Assembly (NCBI RefSeq): GCF_001485535.1 | Contig: NZ_BCMZ01000001.1 | Span: forward strand, 1,488,001-1,552,000 | Direction of reading: 5' to 3' | From: Halobacterium sp. CBA1132 | GTDB taxonomy: Archaea > Halobacteriota > Halobacteria > Halobacteriales > Halobacteriaceae | DNA length: 64,000 nt | Shown: positions 1,864 through 59,819 of the stretch, piece by piece | How the letters are laid out: each line of letters opens with the position of its first letter | Numbering within the stretch: position 1 is the stretch's first letter | The notes under the pieces: model-generated | The model's database searches: none | Told to the model about the DNA's origin: nothing | The model's input: only the letters and a program-made list of their open reading frames with translations | Program-made: the position numbers and the translations under genes

Positions 1864-2526
1864 CTACTGTGGTTGTTGTCGCTCCGCGACGAGCACGCCG
1901 ACCTGCTCGTGGACCATCTCGACGGCGGTGAGCGCGTACCCCTCGTCCGTGAACGCGTCCGCGAGCACGCCTACCGTCGCGGGGTCGTCCACCTCGGGAC
2001 TGTAGAACGGCTCCTCAGGGTCCGGCTCGCCAAAGAACATCACGTCCCCGAGCACGATTCGCCGCGGCCCGAGGCCCGCGATGACGGAGATGGCCTCGCG
2101 CTTCTCCGCGTCGCTGAGGTGGTGCATCGCGAAGTTCGAGGTCACGATGTCGACGCTCGCATCGCGAGCGTCTGCACGGGGCGGCTCCGCCGACCCGGCG
2201 TCCACATCCCCGTCGAAGTTCGGCTCGCGGAACTGGCCCTCGCCGAATTCGACGTTCTCGAAGCCTCGCTCGTCGGCTTTGCGCCGCGCCTCGTCCATCA
2301 TCCCCTCGCTGATGTCGCGACCCACGACTCGACCCGCGTCCTCGGCGAGGCCGAGCGCGATGGCACCCGTCCCACACCCCAAGTCGAGGACGGTGTCGTC
2401 GCTGTCGGGCGCAGCGTGTTCGAGGACGAGCGCGACGCACTCGTTGTACTCCGCGGACTTCTCGTCGTCGTAGCTGGCCGCGAGTTCGTCGAAGCGCGCG
2501 GCGTGCTCGTCAACCGTCTTCTTCAT
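1864..2526 (-). CDS. Class I SAM-dependent methyltransferase
   Basis: Cytoplasmic Rossmann-fold methyltransferase of 220 residues, substrate unknown. The SAM-binding motif VLDLGCGTGAIALG lies at residues 46-59, an acidic motif-II position follows near residue 71, and NFAMHHLSDAEK near 131-142 is typical of UbiE/Methyltransf_11 proteins. The start ATG at 2524-2526 overlaps the end of rnp3 by 17 bases, so the two are translationally linked; this gene commonly sits between rnp3 and rnp2 in haloarchaea. I infer an RNA or tRNA-processing link from context only. Residues about 108-125 (AGSAEPPRADARDAS) are an in-frame palindromic insertion between the normally adjacent D-V-D and VDIVTSNF segments. 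Confidence 0.88.
   Translation of the reverse strand: MKKTVDEHAARFDELAASYDDEKSAEYNECVALVLEHAAPDSDDTVLDLGCGTGAIALGLAEDAGRVVGRDISEGMMDEARRKADERGFENVEFGEGQFREPNFDGDVDAGSAEPPRADARDASVDIVTSNFAMHHLSDAEKREAISVIAGLGPRRIVLGDVMFFGEPDPEEPFYSPEVDDPATVGVLADAFTDEGYALTAVEMVHEQVGVLVAERQQPQ
2152..2191. repeat. In-frame palindromic insertion in the methyltransferase
   Basis: Two perfect hairpins sit side by side inside the coding sequence: GACGCTCGC/GCGAGCGTC with a 3-base loop (2152-2172) and GGCGG/CCGCC with a 2-base loop (2180-2191). They encode a hydrophilic loop of about 17 residues, flanked on both sides by Val-Asp codons, as if the insertion duplicated its target. The frame is kept. Confidence 0.7.
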
Positions 2527-6307: not shown

Positions 6308-6372
6308 GTCGCGGTCACGTGTGCGTCTACGTCAGTGCGCGAGCGGTATAAAACGCTCCGGACGCGGGCGGT

Positions 6373-7386
6373 TCACGACCGGACGCCGAGTGCGCTGGTG
6401 GCGGCGGCGCCGACGCTGGTCGTCAGGAGGTAGCCGCCGACGCTGTGAATCGTGACGACCGCCGCAATCGTCGGCGCGCTCACCGCCGTCAGCAGCGTGA
6501 GCAGCGTGACGTTGATGGCTTCCGTGCCGCCGAGCCCGCCGGGAGTCGGGAGCGCGGAGCCGACCTTCCCGAGCGGCAACACGAAGAAGGGGACGTAAAT
6601 CGGGACGAACGAGTCGAGTGCGAGGAACGTGACCCAGAGCCCGAGGGCTTGGAACGCCCAGCCGAGCGCCGAGCAGCCGAGCGCGGCGACGAGTCGCTCC
6701 CGGGAGACGGCGACCCGGCCGACGGCGTCCGTGAACCCACGCAGTCGCGCGGCGAGGTCGTCGGCGTCGGGCAGGGAGACGCGGGGAATCGCGCCGACGA
6801 CGCGGTGGAGGACCGCCGCGACCGTCCCGCCAACGCGTCCGCGAATCGCCGTCCGGTAGCGCCACACGACCGCCGCGACGATGGGGAGAACGACGGCCGC
6901 CGCGAGCACGCCCAGCGGCAGCAAGCCGAGTTCGCCGCCCGTCTGGGTGGTGACGTAGTAGAGCGAGCCGACCGCCGCGAACGCCAGCGACGGCACGACG
7001 TTGATGGCATCGAGGCTGGTGATGGACGCGAGTCCCACCTCGTAGTCCGTGTCTGCGGTCTTCGACAGCAGCCACGCGGTCACGGGCTCGCCACCGGCCT
7101 GCCCGAACGGCGTGACGTGGTTCGCGAACGCGCCCGCGGCGTTCACGAGGACTGTGGTGTGGAGGGGGAGCCGGATGTCGAGCGCGCGCAGGACGTTCCA
7201 GAGCGCGAGTCCCCACGAGACGTTCCACAGCAGTATCGTGCCCGCGACGCCCGCGAGCAACACCGGGTCCGCGGAGCGAGCCGCCGCGAACACCTCGCGG
7301 GCGTCCACGACCCAGAACATGACCGCGAACACGAGCGCTGCGCCCGCGAGTCCGGCCACCGTCGCCAGCAGGTCCTCTCGCTGCAC
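6373..7386 (-). CDS. Flippase-like membrane protein (lysylphosphatidylglycerol synthase TM/UPF0104 family)
   Basis: A 337-residue integral membrane protein of the UPF0104/LPG-synthase TM family, implicated in moving or modifying lipids and lipid-linked intermediates. It has about eight membrane helices and the family landmarks NAAGAFANHVTPFGQAGGEP near residue 75-94 and LPLGKVGSALPTPGGLGGTEA near 275-295, both of which line the predicted substrate pocket. GTG at 7384-7386 is chosen as start since an A/T-rich patch (GGATTGATTC) lies about 27 bases upstream; a very long reading frame beyond it is antisense to the next gene and is not real. Divergent from the AlkP gene pair, with 162 bases of shared promoter space. 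Probably works with the glycosyltransferase downstream. Confidence 0.85.
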   Translation of the reverse strand: MQREDLLATVAGLAGAALVFAVMFWVVDAREVFAAARSADPVLLAGVAGTILLWNVSWGLALWNVLRALDIRLPLHTTVLVNAAGAFANHVTPFGQAGGEPVTAWLLSKTADTDYEVGLASITSLDAINVVPSLAFAAVGSLYYVTTQTGGELGLLPLGVLAAAVVLPIVAAVVWRYRTAIRGRVGGTVAAVLHRVVGAIPRVSLPDADDLAARLRGFTDAVGRVAVSRERLVAALGCSALGWAFQALGLWVTFLALDSFVPIYVPFFVLPLGKVGSALPTPGGLGGTEAINVTLLTLLTAVSAPTIAAVVTIHSVGGYLLTTSVGAAATSALGVRS

Positions 7387-11202: not shown

Positions 11203-12081
11203 CTACTCCGGGCCGAAGGACTTCCCCTCGCGCTCTTCGGCGTCCATCCGGCGGAGCGTGGCGCGGGCGTTGCTCGCCTCGTAGCCGAAGAACACGCCCT
11301 CGGCGTACTCCTCGACGACTTCGGTGGCGTGAACCAGATTCTCGACCTCGACGTCGACGGCGTACAGTTCGACGCTGAACGGCGCGTCCAGCAAGTCCTC
11401 GAAGCCGGAGGCGATGGTCTCCAGCCAGTACGTCGTGCCGTAGTTCGTGTCGTACAGCGGCACGACGAACTCGTCGACGTGCTCGGCGAGCGCCTCGACG
11501 TCGAGGCCCGCGCGCTCGTAGAGGTGTCCCGGATACGGGTCGGGGTAGAGGGTGAGATACGTCGTTCCGGGGATGCGGTCGGCGGCCTCCGCGACGAACT
11601 CCGTGATGACGCTCGCGCGCCAGTCGTACCAGTTGTCGAACTCGGTGTCTCGCGGGCTCCGCCCGCTCGACTCTCCGGTGGAACGTTGTTCCACCCATTC
11701 CTCGAACGCGCTCTCGCAGCGCTCGCAGTGACAGTACTCGTCGCGCGGGAACCCAACGTCGTCGAGGCGAACGTCGCCGCTGACCTCCGCGCACGTCTCG
11801 ATGACCGTCAACAGGCCCTCGCGGTAGTCCTCGGCCAGCGGGCAGATGTACGACCAGTCGAAGTACGGCTGGTCGCGGGTGGCCTCGTTGCCCTCGTCGT
11901 CGACGGGCACGAGGTCGGGCTCGGTGCCGGCGGTGGCGTTGTCCCCGAAGCAAGACACCATGCTGACGGCGTCCTCCAGCGGGTCGGTGTGGCGGCCGGT
12001 GACGTCTTTGACCTCGTAGAACGTGCGGTCGAACTCCGGCCACTCGATTTCCTCGGCGTTCCGCGTGACGACGCCGTACAT
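11203..12081 (-). CDS. Conserved haloarchaeal protein, glycoside-hydrolase-like TIM-barrel guess
   Basis: Not firmly identified. The 292-residue protein has no signal peptide. DEYCHCERCESAFEEW (residues 114-129) resembles the Cys-x-Cys-x2-Cys motif found in several uncharacterised TIM-barrel glycoside-hydrolase-like families, where it follows a strand ending in Asp-Glu. Later segments (TTYLTLYPDPYPGHLYERAGLD and DEFVVPLYDTNYGTTYWL) look like alternating strands and helices of a barrel with aromatic and acidic residues at strand ends. Residues about 130-146 (EQRSTGESSGRSPRD) are an in-frame palindromic insertion. It is convergent with the GNAT gene and has its own promoter space upstream. Confidence 0.7.
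   Translation of the reverse strand: MYGVVTRNAEEIEWPEFDRTFYEVKDVTGRHTDPLEDAVSMVSCFGDNATAGTEPDLVPVDDEGNEATRDQPYFDWSYICPLAEDYREGLLTVIETCAEVSGDVRLDDVGFPRDEYCHCERCESAFEEWVEQRSTGESSGRSPRDTEFDNWYDWRASVITEFVAEAADRIPGTTYLTLYPDPYPGHLYERAGLDVEALAEHVDEFVVPLYDTNYGTTYWLETIASGFEDLLDAPFSVELYAVDVEVENLVHATEVVEEYAEGVFFGYEASNARATLRRMDAEEREGKSFGPE
11652..11695. repeat. In-frame palindromic insertion (VE..ST subfamily)
   Basis: Two perfect hairpins inside the preceding gene: GCGGGC/GCCCGC with a 3-base loop (11652-11666) and GGTGGAAC/GTTCCACC with a 3-base loop (11677-11695). In the coding direction the GTGGAAC...GTTCCAC arm reads Val-Glu-Gln-Arg-Ser-Thr, the same frame as in the copies near 49.7 kb and 59.5 kb. 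Confidence 0.75.
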
Positions 12082-20309: not shown

Positions 20310-20647
20310 CTAGATGACGTCGTCGGGGTCGTGAACGTCCTGCATCCGCTGTGCCTCCGCGGCGTACTGTTCTTTCAGGTCCGGGTCGCCGGTCTGCCCG
20401 AGATTCCCGGGGTCGGCTTCGACCGCTGCGGTCGTGTCTCGGACGTCCGAGAAACTGGTGAGCGCGCGCTCCTTGCGGAAGTACCGCTCGCCGTCCGGCG
20501 TCGCGTACGTGAGGATGATGATGTTCTGCTCGCCGTGAGAGCACGCTCTCACGTGCATCGGCTCGCTTCGCTCGCCGATACGTCGTCGGAGTACGTCCGC
20601 TCGACCAACTACACCTGCACGGTCTCCTCGCTTTCGTCGTCGCTCAT
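20310..20647 (-). pseudogene. Broken small haloarchaeal gene: premature TAG plus 50-bp palindromic insertion
   Basis: The intact frame would start at ATG 20645-20647 (MSDDESEETVQV), continue LVERTYSDD and then EQNIIILTYATPDGERYFRK to the TAG at 20310. Two lesions are seen. Codon 13 is TAG (minus strand), one base from GAG (Glu). Between GAC-GAC and GAG-CAG there is a 50-base palindromic block (20532-20581) that shifts the frame; removing it gives 288 bases, an exact 96 codons. A 82-residue frame starting inside the insertion (MHVRACSHGEQN...) could still be translated, giving an altered N-terminus. The unbroken protein looks like a small conserved haloarchaeal protein of unknown function. Confidence 0.75.
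20532..20581. repeat. 50-bp palindromic insertion that breaks a gene
   Basis: Contains CGTGAGAGC/GCTCTCACG with a 2-base loop (20534-20553) and TCGGC/GCCGA around TCGCTTCGCTC (20558-20578). Its length, 50, is not a multiple of three, unlike the in-frame members elsewhere in the window. Boundaries were inferred by restoring the small gene's frame. Confidence 0.7.
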
Positions 20648-21946: not shown

Positions 21947-24661
21947 GTGAACGTACGGGGCGAGGTGACCGACGTCGACGAGGTGCGGTCGGTGAACACG
22001 CAGTACGGCGACCGGGACGTGCTCGACGTCCACGTCCGGCCGGACGCGGACAGCGACGCGGCCGCCGACGACCCCGGGGCGTCCGTGCGCGTGACGCTGT
22101 GGGGGAAGTGGACGGAGACCGTCCAGTACCTCGAACCCGGGATGGAGCTGCTGGTGACCGAAGCCGAGGAAGAGGAGTGGAACGGCGACGTGCAGTACTC
22201 GACGAGCAAGGAGTCGTACGTCGTCGTCGAGCCGGACTTCCTCGTGGACGTGACGAACATCCGGTCGTTCGTGCAGTGTCCGCGCCTCTACTACCTGAAC
22301 AAGCTCTCCGGGCTCCCCCTCAAATATCCGGTGACGAAGGGGACCATCGTCCACGAGGTGTTCGGGGACCTGCTCCGGGGCCGCGATTTGGACGACGCGG
22401 TCGCCGAGCGCGTGGACGACGCCGGTCTCGAACTCGGCCTCCTGGGCCGCGACCGCGAGGAAGTGGAGGCCGACGTGCGCGCGAACGCCGCGGCCATCGA
22501 GGGATGGCTCCAGCAGGGCCACCTCTCAGGGGACGGCGGCACGACCGAGGAGCGCGCGGAGGGCTGGCGCGCGGGCGACGACTGGCGCTCGGAGTACACC
22601 CTGATTTCGGAGACGTTCGGCATCAAGGGTCGCTGTGACGCCATCCGTCGCGGGATGCCCGTCGAACTGAAGACGGGGAAGAACACGAACCGCGACCCGC
22701 GCTTCCACGACAAGGTGCAGGCGGCGTGTTACGCGCTGATGTTGGACGACCGCGGCGTGAACGCCGACACCGGAACCCTCCTGTACACGAAGAACGCGGC
22801 CGTCGACCGCAGCGAGGCCTCCGGCGACCTCTCGCCCGCCAAGGAGTTCTCCATCGGGAAGGGGTTCCTCGAATTCGTGGTGCGCCAGCGCAACCACCTC
22901 GCGGCCATCGAGCACGAGGAGAGTCCACCGACGGGGTTCGAGGCGGACGCCAAGTGCGAGTACTGCTTCGAGCAGGACACCTGCATGGTCGTGTCGGGTC
23001 GCCTCGACCAAGAGTCGAAGGCCGGCCAACTCGGCGAGCCGCTCCCCGAGGACGAACGCGCGTACTTCGACGACATCTACGCCGCAATCGAGCGCGAGCG
23101 CGACTCCGTCCACGACGAGTACCGCAAGCTCTGGGAGCAGACGGCCGAAGAGCGCGCGGCCGACGACCGCGCAGTCGTGGACCTCGAACCCGCGGGCAAT
23201 GAGGAGCTGCCGGACGGCCGCTGGCGGCTGACCGCGAAGCGACCGACCGCCGCAGCGTCCAAGATTCGACAGGGCGACCGCGTGCTCGCCTCCGACGGCG
23301 ACCCCGTGCGGGGGACCGCGGAGATGGCGCGCGTGGAGACGCTCTCCCCGGAGCGCGTCGTCGTCACCGCCGACGAACCCGTCGATCTCCGGCGCCTCGA
23401 CGTCTACCCCTCCGAGTTGAGCGTCGACCGGATGCTCACCGCACTCCACGATGGACTCCTGAAGGGCGACCAGCGCCGCAAAGACGTGCTTTTCGACCGG
23501 GAGAGCCCGGACTTCGCGGACGAGGAGTACAGCGTCGTCGACAACAACGACGCGCAGAACGAAGCCGTCAGCAAGGCGTTGAACGCCGAGGACTTCGCGC
23601 TCGTCCACGGGCCGCCGGGCACGGGGAAGACGTACACCATCGCGACGCTGATTCGGGAATTCGTCGAGCGCGGCGACCGCGTGCTGCTGTCGGCGTTCAC
23701 GAACCGCGCCGTGGACAACGCGCTCGAAGCGCTGCGCGAGCAGGGGTTCTCCGACATCGTGCGCGTCGGAACCTCGAACGGAATCCGCGAGGACATGCAG
23801 GACCTCCGACTGAACCAGTCCGGCGACCCCGCGGAGTGTGCGCGAGCCCTCCAGACCGCCGACGTCGTCGCCGCCACCACCGCCACGAGCGGGTCCCGGG
23901 TGATGCGCGAGCAGGAGTTCGACGTGGTGCTCGTCGACGAGGCCAGCCAGCTCACCGAACCGGACACGCTCGCGGCCATCAACCGCGGCGAGCGCTTCGT
24001 GCTCGTCGGCGACCACGAGCAACTCCCGCCAGTGGTGCGCTCGGGCGGCCGCCTATCGAAGTCGCTGTTCGAGCGCCTCCACGAAACATACCCGGAGGCC
24101 TCGGTGATGCTCGACCAGCAGTACCGGATGAGCCAGCGGATTCAGGCGTTCTCCTCGGAGGAGTTCTACGACGGGCGACTCCGGCCCGCAACGGGCGAAG
24201 TAGCTGGGCAGACGCTCGCCGATTCGGGGGTGGAGACGGGCGGTTCCGTCCAGAACGGAGTCTCTTTCCACGACGTACCCGGGACGAGCGACGCGCACGT
24301 CGACCCCGCGGAGGCCGAGCGCGTCGGCGAAATCGTCCGCGAGTACGTCGACGCGGGCGTCGACCCCGCCAAGGTCGGCGTCATCGCGCCGTTCCGCGCG
24401 CAGGTCGCGGAAATCGGGCGGCGCGTCCCGGAGGGCGTCACTGTCGACACAGTCGACCGCTTCCAAGGCTCCTCGAAGGAAGTCGTGGTCGTGTCGTTCG
24501 TGGCGACGGGGAGCCTCGACGGCCCCATCTTCGAGGACCACCGGCGCGTGAACGTCGCGCTCACTCGCGCGAAGAAGAGCCTCGTGCTCGTCGGCGACGA
24601 GACGGCGCTGCGCTCGGAGCCGCTGTACGACCGGATGGTCGACTGGGCGAGCCTCGACTAG
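21947..24661 (+). CDS. Dna2-like Fe-S nuclease / superfamily 1 helicase fusion with OB-fold
   Basis: A 904-residue DNA repair/replication enzyme. Residues 1-100 (VRGEVTDVDEVRSVNT, VTLWGKWTETVQYLEPGMEL) look like an OB-fold. A RecB-type PD-(D/E)XK nuclease follows with KGRCDAI (Asp231) and PVELKTGK (Glu240, Lys242), and four Cys placed as in Fe-S nucleases: Cys111, Cys337, Cys340, Cys346. After a barrel-like linker comes an SF1 helicase: GPPGTGKT (Walker A, about 551), VVLVDEASQL (motif II), GDHEQLPP (III), LDQQYRM (IV), TVDRFQGSSKEVV (V) and NVALTRAK (VI). This domain order is Dna2-like. The start is GTG. It overlaps the next, convergent gene by four bases. Confidence 0.93.
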   Translation: MNVRGEVTDVDEVRSVNTQYGDRDVLDVHVRPDADSDAAADDPGASVRVTLWGKWTETVQYLEPGMELLVTEAEEEEWNGDVQYSTSKESYVVVEPDFLVDVTNIRSFVQCPRLYYLNKLSGLPLKYPVTKGTIVHEVFGDLLRGRDLDDAVAERVDDAGLELGLLGRDREEVEADVRANAAAIEGWLQQGHLSGDGGTTEERAEGWRAGDDWRSEYTLISETFGIKGRCDAIRRGMPVELKTGKNTNRDPRFHDKVQAACYALMLDDRGVNADTGTLLYTKNAAVDRSEASGDLSPAKEFSIGKGFLEFVVRQRNHLAAIEHEESPPTGFEADAKCEYCFEQDTCMVVSGRLDQESKAGQLGEPLPEDERAYFDDIYAAIERERDSVHDEYRKLWEQTAEERAADDRAVVDLEPAGNEELPDGRWRLTAKRPTAAASKIRQGDRVLASDGDPVRGTAEMARVETLSPERVVVTADEPVDLRRLDVYPSELSVDRMLTALHDGLLKGDQRRKDVLFDRESPDFADEEYSVVDNNDAQNEAVSKALNAEDFALVHGPPGTGKTYTIATLIREFVERGDRVLLSAFTNRAVDNALEALREQGFSDIVRVGTSNGIREDMQDLRLNQSGDPAECARALQTADVVAATTATSGSRVMREQEFDVVLVDEASQLTEPDTLAAINRGERFVLVGDHEQLPPVVRSGGRLSKSLFERLHETYPEASVMLDQQYRMSQRIQAFSSEEFYDGRLRPATGEVAGQTLADSGVETGGSVQNGVSFHDVPGTSDAHVDPAEAERVGEIVREYVDAGVDPAKVGVIAPFRAQVAEIGRRVPEGVTVDTVDRFQGSSKEVVVVSFVATGSLDGPIFEDHRRVNVALTRAKKSLVLVGDETALRSEPLYDRMVDWASLD

Positions 24662-27725: not shown

Positions 27726-30497
27726 TCAGTCGTCGACGTGCTCGCGGACGCGCTCGTGGAACGCGCGCAGCACCGCGTCCTCGTCGTCGGCGAGCACCAC
27801 GTCGCTCGCCGAGAGGGTCGCCAGCCCGAACGACAGCGGCGACGGCGACTGCAGCGTCGTCTCCGTGACCTCGATATCGCCCGACTGGACGCCCGCCAGC
27901 ACCTCGCGAACGCCCGCCAAATCGAGTTTGTCCTCGATTAGCTCGCGGTACGTCTCGTCGAGCACGGCGAAGTCTTCGAGGCCCTCCGCGAACCCGAGCA
28001 GCATCTCGCTTGCGACCTGTTGTTTGCTCGCGGACTTCTCGCGGCCCTTGTAGCGCTTCAACACGAGCAGCGACCGGGTCGCGTCGATGCGGAAGTACCG
28101 CTGGAGGAGGTCGGTGCCGTCGAGCGCCGCGCGCAGCGTCTCGCGGGCCGTCTCCGGGTCGGTCTTCCGCAGGAGTTGTGCCACGTCGACTTTGCGGTTC
28201 AGCGGCATCGCGAGCGTGAAGCCGTTGTCCGCCACGGAGACGGCGACGTTCGCGTTCGCCTCGTTCGCACAGCGGTAGGCCAACAGCCGCGAGAGGCCGT
28301 CGTTGAACCGCCGGCCGTACGGCGTTCGCACGTGGTAGCGCCGCCGGTACTCGTCGCGGTCCTTGACCTCTTCGACGGCGATGCGGTCGGTCGTGCTGAC
28401 GCTCTCGACGCCCGCGTACTGAATCTGGTCGTCGTACATCCGGGCGAGCGCGCGCACCGCGTTCGCGTCCACGGGGAACTCGCGCAACCACCGCCGCACG
28501 GCGGGCGCACCGCCCTCGTCGTACCGCTCGACTAGCTCGGTCTGGAAGCGCGCGATTTCCCGGCCGAGGTCGTACGACAGCGGGAGGCGCTCGGAGAACC
28601 ACGACGGCACGGTCGCGCGCTCGCTCGTCCGGTCGACGTACACCTTCGACCCGCGGCGGTAGCGGTACGCGAACCGATCCCCGCCGAGCACGAACACGTC
28701 CCCGGCTTCGAGCGTGTCGAGGTAACTCTCGTCGAGTTGGCCGACCCACTCGTCGTCGCCGCGCACGTGGACGTTCACCGCGAACGAGTCCGGAATCGTC
28801 CCGAGGTTCTGGAGGAGAATCGGGCGCGCGAGCCGACCGCGCTTCCCGATGAGTCGCTCGCCCACCTCGAAGTCCGGGTAGTGGTGCGTGCCCGACGTCG
28901 GGTCCTCCGGGTCGCCGTCGTCGCCCCCCGGCGGGTCGTTCTCGTCCCGCCAGATTTTCGCGTACACGTTCCGGTCTTCGAGACCGTCGTAGCCCGCCGT
29001 GAGGTACCGGAACAGGCTCTCGAAGTCCGCGTCCGTGTACTCGCGATACGGGTACGCCGACCGCAGCGTCGCCCGCACCTCGCGCTCGGGGAGCGGTCCC
29101 TCGATTGCCATGCCGTAGACGTGCTGTGCGGCGACGTCGTGCGCGCGCTCGGGGATGTGGACGCGGTCCACGAATCCCTGTTCGGCCTGCTGGAGCATCA
29201 CCGCGCACTCCACGAGTTCGTCCCGGTCGAGCGCGATGACTCTCCCAGTCACCGTCCGGCCGGGTCGGTGGCCCGCGCGCCCGACGCGCTGGAGGAGACT
29301 GGCGACGGATTTGGGGGAGCCCACCTGCACCACGAGGTCGATGTGGGGCATGTCGATACCGAGTTCGAGGCTCGTGGACGTCGTGGTCACCGACAGCGAC
29401 CCCTCCTTCAACTGCTGTTCGACCTCGGTGCGCCGGTCCTTCGAGAGGCTGCCGTGGTGGCACGCGGACTCCTCGTCATCGACGACGCCGCGCTCGCGGA
29501 GGTTCTCGAGGACGCGCTCGGCGCCCGAGCGCGTGTTCGTGAACACGAGCGTGCTGTCGTTGTCTGCGACGAGGTCACCGAGTTCGTCGTAGAACGCGTC
29601 GTTGACGGCGCCCGTCGAGGCGTTCACGAGGTCCGGCGTCGGGCACGACAACTGGAGGTCGTAGTCGCGCGCGAACCGCGCGTCCACGATTTCGCACTCG
29701 CGAGCGTCGCCGCTGCCTCGCGGACGCTGCCCGCTCGGCTCGTCCGCAGAACGAGACTCCGCGCTGTCGAATCCGACGAGGAACCGAGCGATGTCTCCGA
29801 GCGGCTCCACCGTCGCCGAACAGCCGATGCGAGTGAACCCGCCGGCGAGTCGCTGGAGGCGTTCGAGGCTCACCGAGAGGTGCGTCCCCCGCTTGGAGTC
29901 GGCGAGGCTGTGAATCTCGTCGACGACCACGTACTCGACGCTGCGGAGCTTCTCCCGGAACTTCGGCGAGTTCAGCAGAATCGCCAGCGTCTCCGGCGTC
30001 GTATTGAGAATGTGCGGCGTCGACTCCAGCATCTGCTGGCGCTCGTAGTCGGAGGTGTCACCGTGGCGAATCGCCTGCCGGACGTCCGTCTCGACGCCGC
30101 GCTCCGCGAGTCGCCCCGCGATACCGTCCAGCGGGTTCGCGAGGTTGCGCTCGATGTCGTTCGCGAGCGACTTCAGCGGCGACACGTACAGGCAGTAGAC
30201 CTCGTTGTCCAGTCCTTCCGCCTGCTCGCGCTCGAACAGTTCGTTCAAAATTGCGGTGAACGACGCGAGCGTCTTCCCCGACCCAGTCGGCGCGGCAACG
30301 AGCGCGTTCTCGCCCCCGTGAATCAGCGGAATCGCCTCCCGCTGGGGCGGCGTCAGACAGCCGCCGTCCTGCTCGGGCGGCCCGAAGCGGTCGACCCACC
30401 ACTCCCGGACTGCGGGGTCGAGCGCGTCCAGAATCTCGCGGTCCGAGGACTGATGGTCGTCTGCCGACCGCGTCGCCGCCTCCGACTCGGGACCCAT
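27726..30497 (-). CDS. lhr: Lhr-type DEAD/DEAH-box ATP-dependent helicase
   Basis: Superfamily 2 helicase of 923 residues acting on DNA or RNA-DNA hybrids in repair. TPPQREAIPLIHGGENALVAAPTGSGKTLASF near 48-79 is the Q and Walker A region, VSPLKSLANDIERNL motif Ia, TPETLAILLNSPKFR Ib, VVDEIHSLADSKRG the DEIH box, GCSATV the SAT motif, and GRAGHRPGR motif VI. A winged-helix and Lhr C-terminal (DUF-type) domain follow through residue 923. ATG 30495-30497 starts MGPESEAATRSADDHQ. Residues about 245-270 (SAESRSADEPSGQRPRGSGD) look like an in-frame palindromic insertion between RecA-like domains 1 and 2. Upstream is a large non-coding inverted-repeat block. Confidence 0.93.
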   Translation of the reverse strand: MGPESEAATRSADDHQSSDREILDALDPAVREWWVDRFGPPEQDGGCLTPPQREAIPLIHGGENALVAAPTGSGKTLASFTAILNELFEREQAEGLDNEVYCLYVSPLKSLANDIERNLANPLDGIAGRLAERGVETDVRQAIRHGDTSDYERQQMLESTPHILNTTPETLAILLNSPKFREKLRSVEYVVVDEIHSLADSKRGTHLSVSLERLQRLAGGFTRIGCSATVEPLGDIARFLVGFDSAESRSADEPSGQRPRGSGDARECEIVDARFARDYDLQLSCPTPDLVNASTGAVNDAFYDELGDLVADNDSTLVFTNTRSGAERVLENLRERGVVDDEESACHHGSLSKDRRTEVEQQLKEGSLSVTTTSTSLELGIDMPHIDLVVQVGSPKSVASLLQRVGRAGHRPGRTVTGRVIALDRDELVECAVMLQQAEQGFVDRVHIPERAHDVAAQHVYGMAIEGPLPEREVRATLRSAYPYREYTDADFESLFRYLTAGYDGLEDRNVYAKIWRDENDPPGGDDGDPEDPTSGTHHYPDFEVGERLIGKRGRLARPILLQNLGTIPDSFAVNVHVRGDDEWVGQLDESYLDTLEAGDVFVLGGDRFAYRYRRGSKVYVDRTSERATVPSWFSERLPLSYDLGREIARFQTELVERYDEGGAPAVRRWLREFPVDANAVRALARMYDDQIQYAGVESVSTTDRIAVEEVKDRDEYRRRYHVRTPYGRRFNDGLSRLLAYRCANEANANVAVSVADNGFTLAMPLNRKVDVAQLLRKTDPETARETLRAALDGTDLLQRYFRIDATRSLLVLKRYKGREKSASKQQVASEMLLGFAEGLEDFAVLDETYRELIEDKLDLAGVREVLAGVQSGDIEVTETTLQSPSPLSFGLATLSASDVVLADDEDAVLRAFHERVREHVDD
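29699..29747. repeat. In-frame palindromic insertion in the Lhr helicase
   Basis: Inverted repeats CGCGAG/CTCGCG (29699-29704, 29717-29722) and GCGGAC/GTCCGC (29720-29725, 29742-29747) are nested in a stretch coding for a Ser/Gly/Arg/Pro-rich loop of about 25 residues between the first and second RecA-like domains. Less regular than the other members. Confidence 0.5.
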
Positions 30498-30597: not shown

Positions 30598-30914
30598 GAA
30601 AGCCCCGAGGCTGTAGACTCGGGAGGCTCGTTGCGCTCCTCGCTCGCTACGCTCGCTGCGGTGCTTACTTCGCCTGCCTTCGTCTACAGCCTCGCCCCTT
30701 TCAGTCCACCCCGCTACCGGCTGACCAACCGGCTACGGGCGGATTGAAAGGGGCGGCGAGCTCGCGCTTGCCTGGTCGTCTCGCGACGGTGAGCCGAACG
30801 TAGTGAGGCGAACGCCGGGAGAGCTTGCTCTCCCGGAACAAGCACCGCAGGAACGAGCGCAGCGAGTGACGAGGAGCACAGCGAGCGAACGACCGCGAGC
30901 CCGCCGGGGCTTTC
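30598..30914. repeat. 317-bp non-coding block built as a long imperfect inverted repeat
   Basis: No credible gene lies between the Lhr start (30497) and 31011. The outer arms are a perfect 10-base pair, GAAAGCCCCG (30598-30607) and CGGGGCTTTC (30905-30914). Inside, GAGGCTGTAGAC (30607-30618) pairs perfectly with GTCTACAGCCTC (30682-30693), and the AAGCACCGCAG near 30839-30849 pairs with CTGCGGTGCTT near 30656-30666. GCCCCTTTCA-type arms at 30694-30720 and 30728-30754 pair imperfectly, and CCGGGAGAGC/GCTCTCCCGG near 30815-30836 is a perfect 10-base hairpin. GAGCGNAGCGAG words recur. It could be a MITE remnant or encode a structured RNA. Confidence 0.65.
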
Positions 30915-31010: not shown

Positions 31011-31796
31011 ATGCAACTGACGTTCCTCGGGACGGGGAGCGCGATGCCGACGGGAGACCGGATGCAGACCGGACTCCTCCTCGAGCGCGCGGCGGGAACC
31101 GCCGCGAATGGAGCGAGCGGGCAGGACGCCCGCGAGCAGCCCGACAGCCGGCTGCTCGTGGACTGCGGGAGCGGCGTGCTGCACACGCTCGCGCGGACTG
31201 ACGTGGGCTACGAAGGCGTGGACACGGTGTTGCTCACTCACCACCACCTCGACCACGTCAGCGACCTCCTGCCGCTGCTGAAGGCGCGCTGGCTCGCGGG
31301 AGAGGAACACCTCACCGTCGTCGGGCCGACGGGAACGGAGGAGTTGGTGACGGACCTGCTGGACGTTCACGAATACCTGCAGGACCGCGTGGACCTCACG
31401 CTCCGGGACGTCGACGTGGGGGGCTTCGAGGTGGCGGGCTTCGACGTCGAGGCCATCGAGACGCGGCACTCGATGCCGGGGCTGGCGTACAACTTCGACG
31501 GCGAACTCGCGTTCAGCGCGGACACCGAAGCGTTCGCCGGGATGGCTGCGTTCGCGGACGGCTGCGACGTGCTCGTCCACGACTGCTCGTTCCCCGACGA
31601 GGTGGACGTCTCGAACCACCCGACGCCGACCCAACTGGGGGAGTCGCTCGCTGGCGCGGACGTCGACGAACTGTACTTGACGCACCTCTACCCGCACACG
31701 GACGGGAAGCACCGCGAGATGCAGGAGAGCATCGAGGAACACTTCGACGGCCACGTCGCGTTCGCGCGGGACGGCCTCGTCGTCGAAACCCAGTAG
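31011..31796 (+). CDS. Metallo-beta-lactamase-fold hydrolase, RNase Z-like
   Basis: A 261-residue MBL-fold protein with the opening MQLTFLGTGSAMPTGDR of RNase Z/ElaC-like enzymes, which trim pre-tRNA 3' ends; haloarchaea also have shorter relatives of unknown substrate, so I keep the name generic. LTHHHLDH (residues 75-82) is the zinc-binding H-x-H-x-D-H motif, LVDCGSGVLHTL near 49-60 precedes it, and DCSFPDE, LYLTHLYPH give the remaining metal ligands. Residues about 26-45 (RAAGTAANGASGQDAREQP) are an in-frame palindromic insertion between LLLE and DSRLLVDCG. ATG 31011 follows a TATA-like GTTAACC patch by about 28 bases. Confidence 0.85.
   Translation: MQLTFLGTGSAMPTGDRMQTGLLLERAAGTAANGASGQDAREQPDSRLLVDCGSGVLHTLARTDVGYEGVDTVLLTHHHLDHVSDLLPLLKARWLAGEEHLTVVGPTGTEELVTDLLDVHEYLQDRVDLTLRDVDVGGFEVAGFDVEAIETRHSMPGLAYNFDGELAFSADTEAFAGMAAFADGCDVLVHDCSFPDEVDVSNHPTPTQLGESLAGADVDELYLTHLYPHTDGKHREMQESIEEHFDGHVAFARDGLVVETQ
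31089..31133. repeat. In-frame palindromic insertion in the RNase Z-like gene
   Basis: Two perfect hairpins: GCGGCGG/CCGCCGC with a 3-base loop (31089-31105) and GCGGGC/GCCCGC with a 5-base loop (31117-31133). They encode about 18 Ala/Gly/Ser/Gln/Asp-type residues in a loop close to the N-terminus and keep the frame. Confidence 0.7.
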
Positions 31797-41172: not shown

Positions 41173-42870
41173 CTACAGTCGCTTGCTGACGTAGGGACCG
41201 TCCTGTCGGTAGCCGAGCTTCTGCTTGTAGTACTGGCGCGCGCCGATTCCGGAGATGACGCTGAGCTTCTCGAAGCCGGCGTCGGCGGCCATCTCCTCGG
41301 CGCGCGTCATCAGGCGCTGGCCGTAGCCCTGATGCTGGTGTTGGCCGTCCGCAGTGTCGTCGCCTGCTCGCGGCGTGCCGCCGCTCGCTGGTTCGGAGTC
41401 GCGTGGCGACTCCCCGACCCCGACCTCGCCGCCGTAGACGTGGAGTTCGCGCAGCAGCGCCGCGTCCTCCAGTTCGTCCCGCACGGTGTCGTTCGGGAAG
41501 CGAAGGCGCGCGAACCCGACGAGGAGGTCCTTCTCGAAGTCCTCGAAGCTGATGAAGTGCTCCGTGCCGCCCGCGACGTCGTAGGTCATCACGTCGAGTT
41601 CGACGTTCTCCGGCTCCTCGTCGTTCATCCCGGCCTCCCGGCAGCGGATGCACTCGCAGGTGTAGCCGTGCTCGTCCATCTTCTCCCACGCGAGCTGGCG
41701 GAGATTCGACTTCCAGACGCCGGCGTCGATGTGGTCAGCGGGAATGTCCCGCTGGACGCGCTGGAGGCGCGTGTACCGCGGAATCATGTCCATGACCTCC
41801 GCGACCAGCTCGGCGGCCTCCTCGTTCTGCAGCGGCTGGAACTCCTCGTTGCGCCACATGTCGTACGTAACGGTGTCGCGGACGACCAGCGTCGGGTAGA
41901 TTTTGAGGTAGTCCGGCTTCCACTTCTCGTCCTCGAACAGTCGCCGGAAATCCTCCAAGCACATTTCCTTGCTCATGCCCGGCTGGCCCGGCATCATGTG
42001 GAAGCCGACCTTGAACGCGGCGTCGCGCAGCCGGCGGTTCGCGTCGACCGACGCCTGCACGCCGTGCCCGCGGTGCATCTCGCGGTTGATGCGCTCGTAG
42101 GTCGTCTGCACGCCCACCTCGACTTTGGTGCCGCCGAGGTCGAGCATTCGGTCGACCTGCTCGGGGTCACACCAGTCGGGCTTCGTCTCGAACGTCGTCC
42201 CGATGTTCCGGATGTCGCCGAACTCGTTGTCCGCGATGACGTCTTCCAGATAGCGGAAGTCGTACTCCTCGGGGTCTTGGGCGAACGATTCGGACTCCGA
42301 GGGGTTGGGTTCCTGCTCGGGGTCGAAGTCGTTCAGCGCTTCGAGCGCGCGCTTCACGAACCACTCCTGGTAGTCGTGGCTGCGCGCGGTCATCGTCCCG
42401 CCCATCAAGATGAGTTCCACCTTGTCGACCGGGTGTCCGATTTCCCGGAGCTGGTGGAGCCGCAGCGTCACCTGCCCGTAGGGGTCGTAGTCGTTCTGGA
42501 CGCCGCGGGCGGCCGCCGGCTCGTGGCCCGTGTACGACTGACTCGACGAGAACTCGCTGGCGGGCCCGCCCGGGCAGTAGAGGCACTTGCCGTGCGGGCA
42601 CATGTGCGGGCTCGTCATGATGGCGACCGGCGTGACGCCGGACGCGGTCCGCACGGGCTTGCGCTGGAGGACGTCTTCGAGGTCGTCGCGACGGTCGTCG
42701 GGCGCGAAGTCCAGTAGCTCGGAGTGCTTGGGCACCTTCGGTGCGGAGTGCTCCGAGCACACCTCTAGTTTCGCGCTCTCGACGTCGTCTCTGCCGACGT
42801 CCCCGTCGAGGATTCGTTCGACGAGCTCCTCGCAAGCGGCCTCGAATGCGGGGTCGGCGTCCGCGCTCAT
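41173..42870 (-). CDS. elp3: Elp3, tRNA U34 carboxymethyl-transfer enzyme (radical SAM + GNAT)
   Basis: Archaeal Elp3 modifies the wobble uridine of tRNA using acetyl-CoA and radical SAM chemistry. The 565-residue protein has SPHMCPHGKCLYCPGGPASE near 87-106 (Cys-x4-Cys-x2-Cys for the 4Fe-4S cluster), GGTMTARSHDYQEWFVKRAL near 156-175, and GVQTTYERINREMHRGHG near 240-257. The C-terminal acetyltransferase has YGQRLMTRAEEMAADAGFEK and ISGIGARQYYKQKLGY. Between the two lies an in-frame palindromic insertion of about 30 residues (GVGESPRDSEPASGGTPRAG). ATG 42868-42870. No Elp1/2 partners exist in archaea, as expected. Confidence 0.95.
   Translation of the reverse strand: MSADADPAFEAACEELVERILDGDVGRDDVESAKLEVCSEHSAPKVPKHSELLDFAPDDRRDDLEDVLQRKPVRTASGVTPVAIMTSPHMCPHGKCLYCPGGPASEFSSSQSYTGHEPAAARGVQNDYDPYGQVTLRLHQLREIGHPVDKVELILMGGTMTARSHDYQEWFVKRALEALNDFDPEQEPNPSESESFAQDPEEYDFRYLEDVIADNEFGDIRNIGTTFETKPDWCDPEQVDRMLDLGGTKVEVGVQTTYERINREMHRGHGVQASVDANRRLRDAAFKVGFHMMPGQPGMSKEMCLEDFRRLFEDEKWKPDYLKIYPTLVVRDTVTYDMWRNEEFQPLQNEEAAELVAEVMDMIPRYTRLQRVQRDIPADHIDAGVWKSNLRQLAWEKMDEHGYTCECIRCREAGMNDEEPENVELDVMTYDVAGGTEHFISFEDFEKDLLVGFARLRFPNDTVRDELEDAALLRELHVYGGEVGVGESPRDSEPASGGTPRAGDDTADGQHQHQGYGQRLMTRAEEMAADAGFEKLSVISGIGARQYYKQKLGYRQDGPYVSKRL
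41370..41413. repeat. In-frame palindromic insertion in elp3
   Basis: GCGGCG/CGCCGC with a 3-base loop (41370-41384) and GGAGTCGC/GCGACTCC with a 3-base loop (41395-41413). They encode part of a Ser/Pro/Gly/Asp-rich linker just before the acetyltransferase motif A, keeping the frame. Confidence 0.7.
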
Positions 42871-47192: not shown

Positions 47193-48155
47193 CTACGTCG
47201 CGAGGCGAGCGACCGTCTTTTCGCCGCGGTCTTCGAGTTCGACGAGACCGTCGTCGGCGAGGTCACCGAGCAACTCCCGGAGCCACTCGCGGCCGGTGTC
47301 GCCGCCGTAGTCGACGCGCACTCGCGGGCCGAGTTCGTCGAGTTCGAGTTCGCCGTGCTCGCGGAGCGCGCCGACCGCGCGCCCGCGCTTCTGCCGGCGA
47401 CTCCCCTCGAACGTGGACTGCTCGGGAACGTCGGGCGCGGAGAAGTCCCCGGAAGCGTACGCCGCACACCACTCGCGCCACGGACAGCCGCCCTCGTCGC
47501 AGTTCGGGGATTTGCCGCAGGCGACGCCGCCTAACTCCATGATGGCGTTGTTCCAGACTTCGGACTCGCCGGCGGGCATGAGTTCGTTTGCCGCGTCCTC
47601 GAACGCCGCGTCGTCGTCCGGCACGTCGAACGCGCGGTAGAGCACGCGCTTGACGTTCGTGTCCACGACGGCGTCGCCGTTGTCGAACGCGAACGACGCG
47701 ACCGCGTTGGCGGTGTACGGGCCGACGCCCATCAGCTCCGAGAGTTCGTCGGGCGTCTCGGGGAACTCGCCGCCTTCGACGGCTTCGCCGTCTCCGGGAG
47801 GTCGGTCTGCCGGACCGACCTCTCCCTCTTCGACCTGCTGGGCGGCCTCGTGGAGGTACTTCGCGCGGTTGTTGTAGCCGAGGCTGTTCGCCGACCAGAA
47901 TCCGACGACGTCCGCGCGGTCGGCGGCCGCCAACTCCGCGGTCGTCGGCCAGCGTTCGAGGAACGCGTGGTAGGCGTCCTCGACGCGGGAGAGTTGGGTC
48001 TGCTGGCTCATCACCTCGGAGACGAGGATGGCGTACGGGTCGTCGGTGCGCCGCCACGGGAAGTCCCGGTGGCCGTCCTCGTACCACGACACGAGCGCGT
48101 CGCGGACGGCGTCCACGTCGCTGGGGAGCGCGTACTCCCCGTCCCCCTCAGTCAT
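47193..48155 (-). CDS. mutY: A/G-specific adenine glycosylase MutY (short form)
   Basis: Removes adenine mispaired with 8-oxoguanine or guanine. The 320-residue protein has FPWRRTDDPYAILVSEVMSQQTQ near 32-54 (catalytic Glu at 47), the helix-hairpin-helix LMGVGPYTANAVASFAF near 141-157 followed by the catalytic Asp in VVDTNVKRVLYRA, and a 4Fe-4S motif CGKSPNCDEGGCPWREWC. It lacks the C-terminal Nudix-like domain of bacterial MutY; instead a winged-helix-like tail (RGRAVGALREHGELELDELG) follows. Residues about 109-130 (EGEVGPADRPPGDGEAVEGG) are an in-frame palindromic insertion. ATG 48153-48155. Confidence 0.93.
   Translation of the reverse strand: MTEGDGEYALPSDVDAVRDALVSWYEDGHRDFPWRRTDDPYAILVSEVMSQQTQLSRVEDAYHAFLERWPTTAELAAADRADVVGFWSANSLGYNNRAKYLHEAAQQVEEGEVGPADRPPGDGEAVEGGEFPETPDELSELMGVGPYTANAVASFAFDNGDAVVDTNVKRVLYRAFDVPDDDAAFEDAANELMPAGESEVWNNAIMELGGVACGKSPNCDEGGCPWREWCAAYASGDFSAPDVPEQSTFEGSRRQKRGRAVGALREHGELELDELGPRVRVDYGGDTGREWLRELLGDLADDGLVELEDRGEKTVARLAT
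47778..47822. repeat. In-frame palindromic insertion in mutY
   Basis: GACGGC/GCCGTC with a 3-base loop (47778-47792) and GAGGTCGGTC/GACCGACCTC with a 5-base loop (47798-47822), both perfect. They add about 20 residues between the glycosylase core helices and the helix-hairpin-helix, in frame. Confidence 0.75.
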
Positions 48156-58859: not shown

Positions 58860-59819
58860 TCACTGCCGGTCGAGGCGCGAGAGCCCGTGCCAGATGGCGT
58901 TCACGAGTTTGTCCTCGCCGTCCCCGTCGGCGTCGCTCCACCCGCGAGCGAGCGCGTCTTCGAGCGTGGCGAGGTCGTGGTTCTCGAAGTTGTTCATCCC
59001 GCGGAACGCTTCGAGCGCGTCGCGAGCGTCGTCGCCGAACTCCCCGGAGGGCGTCCCGTCGTAGAACCCGAGGTCGGCGAGCGCGCTTCCGACGGCTTCG
59101 GCCGTCTCGCCGTCGAGTTCGCGGTACTCGTCTGGGTCCTCGCGTTCGAGCAGCGTCACGTCGTAGACGCGGAACACGCGCTCCAGTTCGTCGATGGGCG
59201 CGTCGTGGTCGTCCACGCGGACGTCTATCCAGCGGTCGTTCCCGCCGTCGTAGCCGCCCTCGGGTTTGGCGACGTACAGCGCCGCGGACTGCTCGCCGCG
59301 CTGGTCGCCGCCCGCCTCGTTGCCCGCGTGCAGCGCCGCAATCAGTTTCTCCGGGAGACCTCCCTCGGTCTCCTCGAACGTGTCCGCCATCGCGTCCACT
59401 GTCTCTCGGTTCTCCAGAATATTCCCCTGGACGGTGTAGTTCTCGCCCTGCCGGTCGCTGGCGTGGTCGAAGCACTCCTCGCCGGTGAACGCCGCGACGG
59501 AGCCGGCCTGCCCGACGACATCGTCAGACTCCGTCTGACGGGCCGTGGAAGCAGGTGCTTCCACGATGCCCACTTGGCGCTCGGGGGCGTCCTCGTCCTC
59601 GTCAGTCAACTGCTCGACCACCTCGTCAGCGGAGTGGCCCTCGCGGAGCAAGTCGAGGCCGTCGGGGCCGTACGCCACGTTCGCGAAACTCTGCGTGGCG
59701 ATTGCGCCGGCGTCCGCGCTCGCGAACGGGACGACCGCGCCCACGCCGACGAACTTCGACTGGACGGCGACCCCGACCGCGTCGGTCTCGGGGTCGCGCG
59801 CAACGATGGAGAACGTCAT
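58860..59819 (-). CDS. DUF1028 protein (Ntn-hydrolase-like)
   Basis: A 319-residue protein. MTFSIVARDPETDAVGVAVQSKFVGVGAVVPFASADAGAIATQSF near 1-45 is the DUF1028 opening; the fold is Ntn-hydrolase-like, and Thr2 after Met removal would be a candidate nucleophile (family knowledge; not proven here). The middle has NYTVQGNIL near 130-138 and DQRGEQSAALYVAKPEGGYDGGNDRWIDVRVDDH near 180-210, then a C-terminal peptidoglycan-binding-like helical part (SALADLGFYDG ...). Residues about 87-100 (EAPASTARQTESDD) are an in-frame palindromic insertion. ATG 59817-59819. Confidence 0.9.
   Translation of the reverse strand: MTFSIVARDPETDAVGVAVQSKFVGVGAVVPFASADAGAIATQSFANVAYGPDGLDLLREGHSADEVVEQLTDEDEDAPERQVGIVEAPASTARQTESDDVVGQAGSVAAFTGEECFDHASDRQGENYTVQGNILENRETVDAMADTFEETEGGLPEKLIAALHAGNEAGGDQRGEQSAALYVAKPEGGYDGGNDRWIDVRVDDHDAPIDELERVFRVYDVTLLEREDPDEYRELDGETAEAVGSALADLGFYDGTPSGEFGDDARDALEAFRGMNNFENHDLATLEDALARGWSDADGDGEDKLVNAIWHGLSRLDRQ
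59522..59565. repeat. In-frame palindromic insertion in the DUF1028 gene (VE..ST subfamily)
   Basis: CGTCAGAC/GTCTGACG with a 3-base loop (59522-59540) and CGTGGAAGCA/TGCTTCCACG with a 2-base loop (59544-59565), both perfect. In the coding direction GTGGAAGCAC... reads Val-Glu-Ala-Pro-Ala-Ser-Thr. The two-hairpin layout equals that at 11.65 kb. Confidence 0.8.

Follow-up and report, generated by a model that had tools for sequence, protein, structure and literature searches.

The 338-bp locus at positions 20310-20647 of the window is, with good probability, a recently dead and redundant copy of a small haloarchaeal gene which carries a single double hairpin of a family that we designate beta. 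The window is the whole 64-kb stretch analysed and corresponds to contig C1, positions 1488001-1552000, in a genome of 3.01 Mb (4 contigs, completeness 99.6%); within the named collection, Halobacterium is closest to this genome. More tentatively, we propose a wider picture in which the insert is the exception that makes a filter visible. Mobile double hairpins, distributed order-wide and recognizable by their shape (free complementary arms, fixed linkers and G.A steps), would enter conserved enzymes as ready-made acidic loops in a single frame, and the insert would be out of frame since its gene was dispensable.

Two lesions in a small haloarchaeal gene

The locus comprises the following features:

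20310-20647, minus strand: broken copy (probable pseudogene) of a gene for a small conserved haloarchaeal protein, 95 residues in sister species
20609-20611, minus strand: premature stop (TAG, codon 13) that replaces an invariant TGG (Trp), independent of the insert
20532-20581, minus strand: 50-nt double-hairpin insert, family beta, not divisible by 3, with a TGA in the family's usual frame and without target duplication
20557-20579, minus strand: hairpin 1 of the insert, 6-bp stem, tandem G.A on both sides of a GC-GAA-GC tip
20534-20553, minus strand: hairpin 2 of the insert, perfect 9-bp stem, 2-nt loop
20310-20558, minus strand: residual 82-codon ORF, its ATG inside the insert and in frame into the conserved 73 codons

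The host gene starts with an ATG at 20647, its stop ends at 20310, and its 338 nt equal 288 + 50. From 20647 downward it reads ATG AGC GAC GAC GAA AGC GAG GAG ACC GTG CAG GTG TAG. Searches of Pfam and NCBIfam were both empty; assignment of the host gene to a named family is thus excluded for these two collections. A protein search with a 73-residue part found homologues in 47 of 59 related genomes.

The first-pass annotation of this DNA had described a 50-base palindromic insertion in a small conserved gene, and this description is confirmed. The insert forms two hairpins, and the syntenic gene of Halobacterium sp. KA-4 (genome G004, locus L046; 93% identity over 73 residues) lacks exactly the 50 bases seen in the window. 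It encodes 95 residues and thus is the intact version which had been anticipated in a sister strain; every homologue examined is intact, although the annotation had allowed for the opposite outcome, i.e., that no intact version might exist anywhere. When the flanks of the insert are joined 96 codons result, the final stop counted, which is TAG in the window and TGA in the sister gene. Removal of the 50 bases was said to restore 96 codons. It does restore this frame, yet not the gene, because the stop at codon 13 stays in place.

This stop deserves separate consideration. A TAG at codon 13 had been reported and is present, yet it was explained as left behind by the insert and as one base from GAG, and both explanations fail. 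The TAG is located 27 bases upstream of the insert, which excludes a product of the frameshift. In the sister gene the codon is TGG; the Trp is invariant in an alignment of 30 sequences and conserved in 69 of 69 fetched homologues (47 by the first pattern; the remaining 22 have M, A or T before the Trp), which excludes GAG as the ancestor. The stretch WLVERTYSDDE is uninterrupted in all 69. Because the TAG is upstream of the insert and all homologues have Trp at this position, the change from Trp13 to stop is a second lesion that is independent of the insert. Thus the claim that the insert caused the breakage is not supported as it was written: the Trp13 stop also kills the frame, and an intact paralogue exists elsewhere in the genome, on contig C2 (283 kb), with 85% identity across the compared 73 residues. 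A third, distant homologue is encoded on C1.

For the intact sister protein AlphaFold gives a model of low confidence (mean pLDDT 60.6). It predicts strands at residues 13-21 and 24-32, which would place the insertion point, after residue 22, at a turn. The most conserved stretch, WLVERTYSDD, would, with the same low confidence, form the first of the two strands in a beta hairpin.

A sequencing or assembly error is a highly improbable origin of these lesions. Palindromes and single bases can be misread, and the species is represented by one assembly. Against an error stand the two lesions of different kinds, the fit of the insert to a family model trained on other loci, and the completeness of 99.6% in 4 contigs.

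The insert and the order of events

The borders of the insert slide by one base in either direction. Its flanks, GACGAC and GAGCAG, show no target-site duplication, a result which applies to this copy alone. A comparable double hairpin appeared in 8 of 2000 Markov-2 shuffles of the 338 nt; the folding energy of the locus is not unusual (z -0.63). The claim that the insert belongs together with the other palindromes of the window was examined with R2, a covariance model trained on four other beta members with the insert excluded. The insert ranks first in the 64-kb window (41.1 bits at E 1.2e-6, runner-up at E 0.011; the E-values of our home-made models R1 and R2 are rough), and it shares the layout of family beta in alignment A3. 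This upholds the claim. The insert is absent from the 41 matches of R2 in its own genome at E <= 1, where 150 of 13,128 first-look candidates were scored, and it is not among the 60 own-genome matches of R1, the model of family alpha. An Rfam scan of the window at gathering score returned a sole match, leuA-Halobacteria RNA (RF03001; 60283-60335, minus strand; 60.9 bits); the insert was unmatched, which rules out a known Rfam family for it.

Seven other in-gene members were found in the window:

2155-2210, minus strand: other double-hairpin insertion, 51 nt net, in frame
11646-11696, minus strand: family-alpha insertion, 51 nt, in frame
29714-29769, minus strand: family-alpha-like insertion in a putative helicase gene, 51 nt net, in frame
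31087-31137, plus strand: family-alpha insertion in a putative RNase Z / beta-lactamase-fold gene, 51 nt, in frame
41363-41413, minus strand: family-alpha insertion, 51 nt, in frame
47782-47829, minus strand: other double-hairpin insertion in a putative A/G-specific DNA glycosylase gene, 45 nt net, in frame
59514-59561, minus strand: other double-hairpin insertion, 48 nt, in frame

They measure 45-51 nt net and all are divisible by three; in a raw DNA alignment small gaps nearby give two of them apparent lengths of 50 and 43. Among the in-gene members found in the window, the 50-nt copy is the only one not divisible by three, as the annotation had stated. The insertion at 31087-31137 is absent from G002, G004, G011 and G012.

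When translation is continued from the upstream gene in the family frame, the insert encodes V S A S E A S R C T and then a stop, the TGA of which is part of a stem. Its total of 50 nt is due to the second hairpin, which has 16 nt, compared with 14 or 23 in six relatives (counted by eye). The rule of family beta in live genes, i.e., a multiple of three and no stop in the family frame, is broken by the insert, in a host which is probably dead. That the insert ignores the frame rule fits the expectation for a dispensable gene. Only in an unneeded gene would such a copy survive, which fits the paralogue and the independent stop.

The insert is absent from the orthologues in G002, G004/KA-4, G009, G011 and G012; in the comparisons with G002 the locus fell between aligned pieces, and the empty site was taken from G004/KA-4. 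In codons 14-95 the changes on the branch of the window, polarised with three outgroups, are 8 synonymous and 0 non-synonymous, a ratio with a chance of 2e-5 under neutrality; for three more, two synonymous and one non-synonymous, polarisation was not possible. From this it follows that either the gene was constrained until recently or the remaining ORF is still constrained. Absence and substitutions together support a recent insertion, as had been suggested.

Which lesion came first? It is quite possible that the Trp13 stop killed a redundant copy and that the element then entered neutral DNA. The intact paralogue is in agreement with this course of events, as is the fact that the insert alone breaks the rule of length and frame, and those R2 matches which have no open frame also vary in length (e.g., L312, L319, L321). 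Yet a strain with the stop alone was not found, and the bases are too few for dating both events. In the reverse order, which is in essence the account of the annotation and which we consider only slightly less likely, the frameshift and the TGA of the element killed a working gene and the Trp13 stop was acquired later. The upstream junction displays the orientation and frame of the family (GTA TCG GCG AGC GAA GCG AGC), as if the element had entered a live gene, and the constraint on the gene lasted almost to the present. However, a match of orientation and frame has a chance of 1 in 6, the Trp13 stop is enough alone to kill the gene, and with a TGA in the family frame in its own stem this copy was never a tolerable in-frame member.

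The synonymous changes also bear on a third course, in which the gene is alive and the insert provides a new start for a protein of 82 residues from 20310-20558. An ATG and a GTG inside the insert are both in frame with the conserved part of the gene, and the finding that all 8 polarised downstream changes are synonymous would agree with continued use of the residual ORF. The product would, however, be deprived of WLVERTYSDD, and the branch may mostly predate the lesions, so that constraint is expected regardless. We regard a living gene as unlikely and retain a dead, redundant copy with one beta double hairpin as the preferred reading.

The double-hairpin class and its reading frame

The class is defined by its paired architecture more than by sequence. 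In family alpha one stem has 8 bp and a loop of 3 nt; a short linker joins it to a second one, in which tandem G.A steps occur. Family beta follows the layout GTN - [stem GA GC NNN GC GA stem] - GNNCG - stem - CGGYG. In eight alpha members 96.3% of the cells are paired, and 10 of 17 pairs are changed on both sides; in helix 1 of these members pairing is 100%, with 6 of 8 pairs changed on both sides and zero one-sided changes. None of 500 shuffles reached either the overall pairing or the covariation score. Among 57 distinct alpha rows, in an alignment fitted to the model, 94.0% of the cells are paired, and the pairs in helix 1 are nearly all Watson-Crick, with 9 G.U among 456 cells. A selected RNA structure as the main cause of pairing is disfavoured, although not decisively, because near-pure Watson-Crick pairing suits DNA palindromes.

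Over 49 nt six alpha copies share 92-98% identity, whereas their flanks are 19-46% identical. Near-identical copies with unrelated flanks are a prediction of dispersal by copying. Orthologous copies in G000 and G011 retain their arms and differ in the loops, at one site by GAA vs TTC. In L220 and L252 a hairpin shared by orthologous genes of two species likewise has identical arms, with GAA as the loop of one and TTC of the other, as if the loop had been inverted.

With R1 the genome of the window gave 60 matches at E <= 1, of which 44 are at E <= 0.01. At E <= 0.1, 46 of the 59 related genomes contained matches. When 80 genomes were drawn from the phylum and scanned at E <= 0.01, matches occurred in 11 of 11 members of the order and in 0 of the 69 others. 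G007, a genome of about 2.4 Mb from the same genus, has zero R1 matches at E <= 0.1, unlike its congeners.

A comparison of 864 kb of the own genome with 880 kb of G002 aligned 677 kb at 87.8% identity. It contained 107 net gaps of at least 24 nt, 66 with open frames on both sides. From these 66 we chose by eye 25 compact insertions (19 in the own genome, 6 in G002), leaving out low-complexity acidic expansions, gene-end differences and antisense alignments. Their sizes are 33-63 nt except for three composites of 99-111 nt. The host genes gain peptides such as ESAERSSAESASGDKPRA or GVSASAASGGSSHEQRECDG; judged from their sequences, these hosts resemble MutY, RNase Z, a helicase and TrpE. In L215 and L198 three or more hairpins are combined into composites of 99-108 nt; the peptides are homologous although the host genes, which come from two species, are unrelated, and one of these genes is a putative trpE. 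In G012 a 57-nt beta insertion is located in frame near 6355-6412 (minus strand) of L127; the gene corresponds to 21947-24661 of the window, from which the insertion is absent. An intergenic run of several palindromes, including CCGGGAGAGCTTGCTCTCCCGG, occupies 30769-30870 of the window and is partly absent from G002.

Within genes the elements are read in essentially one way. Coding context was defined by GC3 > 0.8, GC3-GC2 > 0.2 and open frames, and matches outside these limits were not counted. In the own genome 20 of 21 confidently coding alpha copies share strand and phase (30 loci of 60 matches). In G011 all 22 do (30 of 60), and in G057, a member of another family in which most copies are outside a coding context, 5 of 5 conform (29 of 50). 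Altogether 47 of 48 confidently coding alpha copies use one of six possible readings, and these 47 are not all independent: they include seven of the eight R1 training sequences, and some copies of G011 are orthologous to copies of the own genome. For beta, 7 of 8 coding copies are in a single reading (30 of 41 loci).

What distinguishes the reading that is used? Stop codons can be ruled out as the cause of survival in one frame, since the other five readings are mostly stop-free (14-25 of 25 insertions). In the 25 hand-picked insertions, which sit in intact genes and are necessarily in frame, the used reading is the only net-acidic one of the six: it has +11 net acidic residues per 100, compared with -0.8 to -26.8 in the other five. 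Haloarchaea with a salt-in strategy have acidic proteomes. Therefore, selection against basic peptides would be a sufficient filter, and it may explain why copies survive in a single frame.

Known palindromic systems and a candidate route of dispersal

Protein-coding palindromes are known from Rickettsia, Wolbachia and Methanocaldococcus jannaschii (PMC10969869, PMC2996958, PMC4224334). According to these reports, the Rickettsia palindromic elements (RPEs) and those of Wolbachia and M. jannaschii are like the haloarchaeal class in that palindromic DNA is situated in frame in unrelated conserved genes. RPEs are about 150 bp long, form ten families and have a conserved peptide, in contrast to the 45-63 nt and two hairpins of the haloarchaeal class. 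The latter further differs by arms which vary in sequence while pairing is kept, by its occurrence in another domain of life and by many intergenic copies. One favoured frame within ORFs, as available descriptions give it for RPEs, is shared by the haloarchaeal class and departed from by the 50-nt copy. Among these elements the closest parallel to the insert is addA of Wolbachia, an exceptional WPE-like case with a premature stop (PMC4224334).

Short elements have also been described in Haloquadratum, i.e., PATEs, palindrome-associated elements related to IS605-type transposons (PMC3119063). They share with the haloarchaeal class a small size, palindromes near both ends, the lack of a transposase and a proposed mobility; a core-deleted PATE has 52 bp (PMC3119063). 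The insert lacks a target-site duplication, as would be expected of a PATE derived from IS200/IS605. In-frame placement in genes is not mentioned for PATEs in the passages of that paper considered here (PMC3119063). REP/REPIN elements, which are mobilised by TnpA-REP (RAYT), are likewise abundant, short, often paired and intergenic palindromes; the haloarchaeal class differs by a large share in genes, in one frame, and by stems that are free in sequence. Inverted repeats are present in protein-coding genes of Nematomorpha mitochondria as well. There both arms encode conserved protein regions and reach up to 284 bp, whereas the haloarchaeal insertions are added peptides (PMC6649704).

In the open-licence literature we found no published description of the haloarchaeal double-hairpin class, and an account elsewhere is possible. 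Apparently the class is unnamed, while coding palindromes as a kind are already known. It is present in most haloarchaeal genomes tested, among them hosts that can be worked with in the laboratory, so that movement, one-frame survival and salt-adapted loops are testable. It may also explain species-specific insertions in alignments of haloarchaeal proteins. The insert constitutes a control case, i.e., a copy in a dispensable gene which ignores the frame rule.

As to a mechanism, we propose with moderate confidence that an enzyme acting in trans, most plausibly a TnpA (HUH) of the IS200/IS605 type, moved the elements in the form of single-stranded hairpins and so dispersed the copies. Mobility as such is inferred from the copies themselves, and support for this route is thin: the insert has no target duplication, and three related IS605-type copies of the genome have G.A-interrupted end hairpins that R1 scores weakly. 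Selection would then purge those copies in needed genes which are out of frame, stop-bearing or basic. At the present locus the paralogue on another replicon would have relaxed selection, and a frame-shifting copy could persist. The free arms may be kept complementary by hairpin-templated repair.

A RAYT-like gene was not identified in the genome; three Y1 transposases with identical scores were found, and they belong to IS605-type elements. The left-end hairpins of the three related IS605-type copies of this genome match R1 weakly (9.4-17.9 bits). These copies (L299-L301; 1287 to about 3130 in L299) consist of tnpA and a following ORF and have G.A-interrupted hairpins at both ends.
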